NCBI RefSeq assembly: GCF_001542905.1
Contig: NZ_LOAJ01000001.1
Location: 434,001-498,000 of the forward strand
From: Halorubrum aethiopicum
Lineage (GTDB): Archaea; Halobacteriota; Halobacteria; Halobacteriales; Haloferacaceae
DNA: 64,000 nucleotides
Reading direction: 5' to 3'
The position numbers and the translations under genes are program-made. The notes under the pieces were generated by a model that did not search any database, was not told the origin of the DNA, and was given only the letters and a program-made list of their open reading frames with translations. Each line of letters begins with the position of its first letter. The first letter of the stretch is position 1. Positions 18,277-62,343 of this stretch are shown piece after piece.

Positions 18277-18601
18277 ATCGTTGCGGTGGCGCGCCTGCGA
18301 GCGTCCCGGAGGGGCGCGAGCAGAACGCGAGGGACGCGGTGAGCGCTCGGAGAGCGCTCACCGCGAGGCTGGGGAGGCGTGAGGTGCGGTTGCGGGACGG
18401 TTGGGCGAGACTCAAAGGGGCAGTCGCCGGCGGCGGAGCCGCCGGCTGCCAGAGGCGCGGAGCGCCTCGCTGTCGCGAGGACGAAGACGCGCGACGCAAG
18501 GCACCACAGGGAGCGAGTGAAACGAGCGACCGAGGAGCACAGCGAGCGCATCGAGTCCTCGCGACTGGGGCTTTGGCGGTGTTCACCGCGTCGGCAACGA
18601 T
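18277..18601 (+). repeat. Dispersed structured element, copy A (long form)
   Basis: This occupies most of the 427-base gap between two convergent genes. It is bounded by an 8-base inverted repeat (ATCGTTGC at 18277-18284, GCAACGAT at 18594-18601). Hairpin 1 is 18301-18307 with 18311-18317. Hairpin 2 is a perfect 12-base stem, 18336-18347 with 18353-18364. The conserved box starts at 18365 (GAGGCTGGGGAGGCGTGAGG). Two further hairpins lie near 18426-18446 and 18453-18470. A long-range stem joins 18472-18482 to 18555-18565, and the end carries GGCGGTGTTCACCGC. No credible reading frame exists. Homologous copies lie at 40917, 52588 and 62120. It may be a mobile non-autonomous element or a structured RNA. 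Confidence 0.8.
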
Positions 18602-40916: not shown

Positions 40917-41080
40917 CGTTGTCGGCGCGGTGACCGCCGGCACGGTGACCGTCGCCGACGCGCCGGGCGACCGCAACCGCACCTCACGCCTCCCCAGCCT
41001 CGTCAGTCGCCTCCGGCGACTGACTCCCTCGCGTTTCGGAAGCGGGCCGGATGGCCCGCTTCCGAGCGCGCCGACCGCGC
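40917..41080 (-). repeat. Dispersed structured element, copy C (short form)
   Basis: Read on the minus strand it matches the family order. Hairpin 1 is the longest of the four copies, a perfect 12-base stem (41037-41048 with 41053-41064). Hairpin 2 is a perfect 10-base stem with three-base loop (41002-41011 with 41015-41024). The conserved box is the complement of 40971-41001. The end is TCACCGCGCCGACAACG in minus-strand reading. It lacks the long 3' arm of copies A and B. It fills most of the 284-base gap before the ABC ATPase gene's 3' end. Confidence 0.75.
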
Positions 41081-52520: not shown

Positions 52521-52587
52521 GGAGTGAGATGGAGCGGAAGGAGAGGTCGTTGAGAAATGTTATCTACTCGGCAAGTATCATTTCCGG

Positions 52588-52835
52588 CGCGGTGAACACC
52601 GCCAAAGCCCCAGTCGCGAGGCGGGCGCACGCTCGCTGTGCTCCTCAGTCACTCACTCCGTTCGCTCCTTCCGGTGCTTGCGTCGCCTGCGCCCGCCTCG
52701 CGACTGCCCCTTTGAATCCCACCCGACCGCGACCGTCCCGCACCTCACACCTCCCCAACCTCGCTGCTCACTTCGTTCGCAGCGTCCCTCGCGATCGGGT
52801 TCGCGCCCTTCGGGCGCTCACCGGCGCGCCACCGC
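52588..52835 (-). repeat. Dispersed structured element, copy B (long form, reverse)
   Basis: Read on the minus strand it follows the same plan as copy A: GCGGTGGCGCGCC at the start, hairpin 1 (52803-52808 with 52812-52817), a weaker hairpin 2 (52762-52767 with 52779-52784), the conserved box (complement of 52737-52762), CAAAGGGGCAGTCGCGAG, and the end GGGGCTTTGGCGGTGTTCAC. A perfect 18-base long-range stem pairs 52612-52629 with 52688-52705. It lies in the 341-base gap between two convergent genes. Confidence 0.8.
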
Positions 52836-62119: not shown

Positions 62120-62343
62120 GCGGTCGGCGCGCGCCTCCGAGCGCCCGACGGGCGCGAGGAGCCCGCGCGAGGTCGCCGGCGCGACGCGCCGGCTGCCGGA
62201 GAATCTCCGATTCTCGCTGGAGGCGGCGGCCCGGAGCGGCGTGCCCGCGACGGTCCGCCCGCCGAGGCTGGGGAGGCGTGAGGTGCGGTCGTAGAGCCGT
62301 CCGCGGTCGGGACCTCGGCGGCCGTCACCGCGTCGGCAACGAC
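62120..62343 (+). repeat. Dispersed structured element, copy D (short form)
   Basis: It fills most of the 384-base gap between nadE and the Nudix gene. Plus-strand reading gives GCGGTCGGCGCGCGCCTC, hairpin 1 (62141-62146 with 62150-62155), a GC-rich central part with less clear pairing (about 62220-62262), the conserved box 62264-62289, and the end GTCACCGCGTCGGCAACGAC shared with copy A. It lacks the long arm of copies A and B. It is the most diverged copy but shares box, hairpin 1 and both ends. Confidence 0.72.

Follow-up and report, generated by a model that had tools for sequence, protein, structure and literature searches.

What keeps a long-range stem paired while its sequence differs from copy to copy is the question raised by positions 52588-52835 of the window, the 64,000-nucleotide stretch of DNA analyzed here (C1:434001-498000 of a 3.33-Mb genome). 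The initial annotation compared this locus (copy B) with a second one (copy A) and read their different but self-complementary arms as a signature of selection on structure, in RNA or in single-stranded DNA. The observation was correct, and the interval proved to be nearly the whole of a larger repeat, of which the stem, here called P2, is one part. Four copies lie in the window: A, B, and two short forms without P2.

52587-52835, folded (G-rich) strand minus: copy B, whole element, from own-genome search and motif map
52589-52594: GCGGTG, outer closing arm P1, complementary to CACCGC at 52830-52835
52603-52607: CAAAG, helix outside the internal loop, pairing with CTTTG at 52710-52714
52608-52610, minus: GGG, one side of the 3x3 internal loop and fourth G tract (98-99% invariant, 128 arm pairs)
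52611-52629: left arm of the P2 stem (19 bp), exact reverse complement of the right arm
52688-52706: right arm of the P2 stem
52707-52709, minus: GGG, other side of the internal loop and third G tract
52710-52714: CTTTG, partner of CAAAG
52718-52724, minus: GGGTGGG, first and second G tracts (six G positions 94-100% conserved, 191 distinct spacers)
52743-52763, minus: T, the most conserved unpaired segment, of the CGAGGCTGGGGAGGCGTGAGG family; two bases differ in copy B
52762-52784, minus: P3 hairpin, CGCTGC-GA-AC-GAA-GT-GA-GCAGCG
52796-52824, minus: P4 hairpin, stem-GA-GCGCCC-GAA-GGGCGC-GA-stem, outer limits approximate
52823-52835, minus: GCGGTGGCGCGCC, 5' end of the G strand, including the outer P1 arm
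18283-18590 (about), G-rich strand plus: copy A, whole element
18403-18409, plus: GGGCGAG in copy A, second G tract reading GAG
18427-18471, plus: nested palindromic insert within the P2 left arm of copy A
18472-18482, plus: P2 arm 1 of copy A
18555-18565, plus: P2 arm 2 of copy A
40918-41078, G-rich strand minus: short-form copy without P2, T motif at 40982, limits approximate
62130-62340, G-rich strand plus: short-form copy without P2 and with a nested palindrome, T motif at 62263, limits approximate

In copy B, the arms described as perfectly paired over 18 bases (52612-52629 and 52688-52705) are exact reverse complements, and an extra pair, C52611-G52706, brings the helix to 19 bp. Beyond it lies a symmetric CCC/CCC internal loop (52608-52610 and 52707-52709), outside which the stem continues, as had been proposed, in the CAAAG/CTTTG helix; the outer GCGGTG is able to pair with CACCGC. 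Copy A, in the opposite orientation, does pair over 11 bp, its 5' arm being split from CAAAGGGGCAGTCG by the nested insert. Compared with dinucleotide shuffles, both copies fold unusually well (copy B, z = -6.7, with 0 of 200 shuffles as good; copy A, z = -5.2, 0 of 100). Although each arm pairs with its own partner, the differences between A and B prove little by themselves, because much of the change consists of whole hairpin cassettes having been swapped, as is also the case in the orthologue of copy B discussed below.

The insert in copy A belongs to a second, smaller palindromic repeat nested in stems of the main element, GCCGGCGGC-GGA-GCCGCCGGC TGCCAGA GGCGC-GGA-GCGCC TCGCTG, with variants such as GAGAATC/GATTCTC. 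It also lies within approximately 62170-62235 of the window, at loci L104 and L012, and at a set of 17 loci, and it too has GNA-type loops and matched arm changes.

The broader claim of selection on structure is supported by covariation, a check that the initial annotation had proposed for a larger set of copies. We compared 128 distinct P2 arm pairs against a conservative, R-scape-like null in which substitutions are redistributed over the tree. Among 861 column pairs, the six with the strongest covariation all correspond to base pairs of the predicted helix, although only two of them reach E < 0.05 (E = 0.027); four more fall at E = 0.08-0.37, and the remaining variable pairs are mostly not individually significant. 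P2 thereby meets the general membership test for a structured RNA, significant covariation supporting helices. On average, arms of the same copy pair at 13.2 of 16 positions versus 9.8 of 16 when exchanged between copies, and the corresponding values outside Halorubrum are 7.9 of 9 versus 4.8 of 9. The GGG/GGG internal loop is 98-99% invariant even though the helices on either side of it vary, and in other copies the CAAAG/CTTTG helix has a pair changed to G-C, as seen for 17 of the 128 arm pairs. Within P2, an interior of the form AAG[CG]ACCGCAG ... GAGGA[GC]CGCAGCGAG recurs across the class in distant genera, with matched C/G exchange between its halves.

Because arm lengths differ, RNAalifold run on an alignment made from sequence alone failed to recover the P3 hairpin or the outer stem of P4, and anchored parsing was used instead, with perfect hairpins sought without fixing the internal loop beforehand. 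Both hairpins follow a common plan, stem-GA/GA-stem-GNA loop, in which the arms change but remain matched. GA/GA stands on the G strand in 102 of 133 perfect P3 hairpins and 112 of 132 perfect P4 hairpins, GNA loops are dominant in each, the outer arms come in 34 kinds for P3 and 16 for P4, and inner stems are of many kinds. The arms of P4 were complementary to their own partners in 112 of 112 cases versus 27% when exchanged, a contrast that is partly built in, since perfect arms were required. In the Halorubrum form, P2, P3, and P4 are thus variable yet self-complementary hairpins with conserved joints.

Single-stranded RNA and DNA are known to form stable motifs of both kinds, tandem GA mismatches and GNA triloops. 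As both occur on the G-rich strand, and the opposite strand would carry TC/TC, the chemistry of the stem-loop motifs points to the G-rich strand as the one that folds, with RNA versus single-stranded DNA undecided. G.T also exceeds A.C on this strand of P3 and P4 (58 versus 12), but unpaired conserved columns, examined as a control, have the same bias (C>T, 4.1% per site, versus G>A, 0.9%). Wobble asymmetry was therefore rejected as independent proof, and the strand call rests on motif chemistry.

Just outside P2 is a GGG-N-GGG segment in which only N is free, its six G positions being 94-100% conserved among 191 distinct spacers. Along the G-rich strand the order is GGGNGGG-ACTCAAA-GGGG-[stem]-GGGG, and the core around P2 can be written GGGTGGGACTCAAAGGGG-P2-GGGGCTTTG. 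Together, GGGNGGG and GGG/GGG supply four ordered G tracts, enough for a quadruplex of three layers, so that the membership test for a G-quadruplex (four ordered, conserved runs of at least 3 G on one strand) is met, with one tract broken in copy A. From sequence we infer that a hairpin-capped G-quadruplex is possible, in which P2 would serve as a hairpin loop; copy A, with GAG in one tract, would not form it.

These features belong to a dispersed Halorubrum repeat. The left motif and copies A and B, used as queries, each led to members of this family, and mapping of its T segment gave at least 88 copies in this genome. Genes were called with a codon model (coding density, 84%), and none of the 88 copies falls within a called gene. 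Of 87 copies, 40 sit between convergent genes, whereas 10 of the window's 50 gene pairs are convergent (Fisher p = 0.003). Ahead of many elements (L123, L111, and L034, for example) lie tandem left-end units of 21-66 bases, CAAAGCCCCAG[TC]CGCTCGGCTGTACG...GCGGTGAACACC, perhaps remnants of deleted copies. About half of the copies in this genome (e.g., C1:244871 and 612197) have a conserved left flank of about 100 bases, GAAACGG...GTGCTTATAGAACGGGTGTTTCGTGA..., which resembles an extra repeat module or a promoter on the C-rich strand.

The family extends well beyond one species. A strong match was present in all 52 genomes of the genus that were searched, and one 25-mer from the T region recurs without mismatch in many named species of Halorubrum, as well as in Halobellus captivus and metagenome-assembled genomes of Halobacteriales. 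(The collection used assigns the Halobellus captivus genome, G150, to the genus of its Halorubrum genomes; it is reclassified or misnamed.) With a covariance model of the core, multiple divergent copies come to light in other genera and families. Of 292 Halobacteria genomes, 194 contain the motif GGGNGGGANTSAAAGGGG, with up to 155 copies in one; its reversed control gave 2 matches across all 292. In other families, a module consisting of GGGNGGGACTGAAAGGGG-hairpin-GGGGCTTTC is often solitary or forms inverted pairs about 24 bases apart. Since the P2 module is found alone elsewhere, the P2 stem is the class-wide part; in Halorubrum and some other genera it is joined by a core made up of P3, P4, and T. 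The linker of the inverted pairs in other families (L289-L293), about 24 bases long, is itself conserved, as AGCATNGNTTNNNCAACCGGCTAC. An origin in viruses or plasmids was considered and rejected, as the element is hardly present there: searches returned a single viral contig and four plasmid records, the latter matching more weakly, and no phage.

Orthologous sites reveal how copies change. In the close relative G014 (P450 97% identical), the orthologue of copy B occupies the corresponding position, flanked by the LigT and P450 genes. In its P2, one C-G pair has become G-C through a clean double change and the interior is new; the outer and inner stems of its P4 are both changed yet self-complementary, with GA/GA kept; part of these stem changes may reflect recombination between copies. 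The copy with T at 62263 is common to the four relatives examined. Two intergenic sites in G150 hold copies that are missing from the window and from G011, but the flanks are too diverged to place exact ends, and neither an exact insertion boundary nor a target duplication was seen at these two sites. Hairpin sequences thus turn over while pairing stays, and orthologous sites differ in whether they hold a copy. No Y1 transposase (PF01797) was found in the window's genome or in G002, G004, G005, and G016, and its presence is unrelated to copy number (G005, for example, has 82 motif matches and no Y1); a resident IS200/RAYT transposase was accordingly rejected as helper. Nor was there an autonomous version with a gene inside P2, the longest interval between P2 flanks being 264 bases. 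The picture is of a slow, chromosomal, REP-like family whose helper has not been identified.

By analogy, the element acts most like the REP/BIME repeats of bacteria. Like these and the RAYT-associated REPINs, it is chromosomal, intergenic, high copy, palindromic, and enriched between convergent genes; it sometimes forms inverted pairs with a short linker, and a strand-specific fold is likely. It passes the membership test for a high-copy, chromosomal, intergenic palindromic repeat, with at least 88 copies mapped, none of them inside a gene, and all 78 close left-motif matches on contig C1. We do not class it as REP/BIME, because two of the defining tests failed: the unit is about 250 bases with three hairpins, not a single hairpin of approximately 20-40 bases with a conserved tetranucleotide, and no cognate Y1/RAYT transposase in the genome or lineage was evident from PF01797 in the genomes checked. 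The GGG/GGG loop, the four G tracts, and the GA/GA-GNA hairpins also set it apart. With MITEs and other palindrome-associated nonautonomous elements it shares a short, noncoding, multicopy form with the ends GCGGTG...CACCGC, but it has no parent transposon and no clear target duplication at the two diverged sites compared, hardly occurs on plasmids or viruses, and conserves its interior structure, not only its ends. The omega-RNAs of IS200/IS605, also named sotRNAs (RF02656/RF02657; PMC12558985), are likewise structured, haloarchaeal, and multicopy, yet we saw no association with tnpB at the copies examined and no Rfam match to the element even at a permissive threshold. Integron attC sites similarly have conserved ends that pair around a variable hairpin interior and, as is inferred for this element, act as a folded single strand, whereas attC sites stand in cassette arrays and this element is dispersed as single copies. 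Quadruplex-duplex hybrid motifs share the ordered G tracts and a hairpin as one loop, with folding only predicted in our case.

Archaeal quadruplexes have been reported in DNA and RNA, and those passages of two such surveys that our search covered (PMC7565180 and PMC12873603) do not mention this repeat. Rfam returned 0 matches at gathering score in the window and 0 up to E = 2 over copy B. Motif strings were not found in this context in the open literature searched, occurring only in unrelated papers, and a known RNA family or a published string was set aside as an explanation. A published description cannot be excluded, because subscription journals and preprints were outside the scope of the search; the family is apparently undescribed as a structured repeat of Halobacteria.

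Several processes could account for such a repeat. Without any structural selection, inverted duplication, template switching, or gene conversion between copies might make and keep palindromes at the DNA level, and the swapping of whole hairpins between orthologous copies is what recombination or template switching could do; nested palindromes inserted into stems are also compatible. We consider this very improbable, since repair toward a perfect palindrome would erase the imperfect GA/GA and GGG/GGG loops that persist amid changing stems, as the internal loops surviving in the G014 orthologue illustrate for template switching. Simple inverted duplication within each copy, which the initial annotation named as a potential refutation, is likewise insufficient: across species, the same nested helix positions hold many alternative complementary pairs, wobble intermediates exist, and internal loops stay imperfect. 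A role in chromosome structure, with copies kept as binding or topological sites for, e.g., SMC-like, nucleoid, or topoisomerase proteins, is unlikely but has more in its favor. All 78 left-motif matches with at most 1 mismatch lie on C1, the main chromosome, with 0 on the two smaller contigs (280 kb together), and the element is intergenic and has long persisted in the genus. However, positions turn over between relatives, no protein partner is known, and strand polarity along the chromosome was ruled out by an orientation that is random (runs z = 0.65).

It is possible, though we lean away from it, that the element works as transcribed RNA, either as a multicopy noncoding RNA with a conserved structure or in cis at the 3' ends of mRNAs, as a terminator, stabilizer, or barrier to convergent readthrough. 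Conserved hairpins, internal loops, and joints are typical of structured RNA families, and enrichment between convergent genes would fit. In many copies from other Halorubrum, a TTATAAA box lies some 15 bases beyond the 5' end of the G strand (GCGGTG) and could be a promoter or simply an AT-rich end, but the window's genome has hardly any such TATA-like boxes (3 of 80); an independent RNA gene with its own promoter was rejected because the box is common only in other species. Absence of an Rfam match also weighs against RNA. The lack of strand preference in tandem-gene contexts (19 versus 13) speaks against a cis role in mRNA and fits an element independent of the neighboring mRNA.

The reading we favor, at a probability of roughly 0.5 and largely by analogy, is an ancient, high-copy, chromosomal intergenic repeat whose G-rich strand forms a fold recognized in trans, with copying or upkeep resembling that of REP/BIME. 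When single stranded, the G-rich strand would fold, with P3 and P4 shaped by sheared GA/GA pairs and GNA loops, and GGGNGGG-(ACTCAAA)-GGG[P2]GGG may become a three-layer G-quadruplex capped by P2 and flanked by CAAAG/CTTTG, which the molar potassium of the haloarchaeal cytoplasm would favor. An unidentified enzyme or protein could recognize this fold in trans and copy or maintain the element as a single strand, in the manner of REP/BIME. Selection at this recognition or copying step would preserve the fold, and copies would persist where they are least harmful, most often between convergent genes. Against such copying, no trans factor has been identified, and absence from the smaller contigs, together with near-absence from viruses and plasmids, is unlike most mobile elements. 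Only as a tentative suggestion do we extend this reading to a class-wide duplex-quadruplex-duplex device, stabilized by molar intracellular K+, with a freely evolving hairpin cap and up to more than 100 chromosomal copies, whose fold would be what an unknown copying or structural system of haloarchaea recognizes.

If the favored reading is right, about two-thirds of sampled Halobacteria genomes carry a structured repeat family that is an archaeal counterpart of REP, with a core capable of forming a G-quadruplex. The molar K+ of haloarchaea is a natural setting for a quadruplex-based function, and tens to more than 100 natural variants per genome make an unusually good system for testing folds inside cells. 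Such a family would account for much of the conserved palindromic DNA that lies between Halorubrum genes, and it would provide a covariance model for its annotation.
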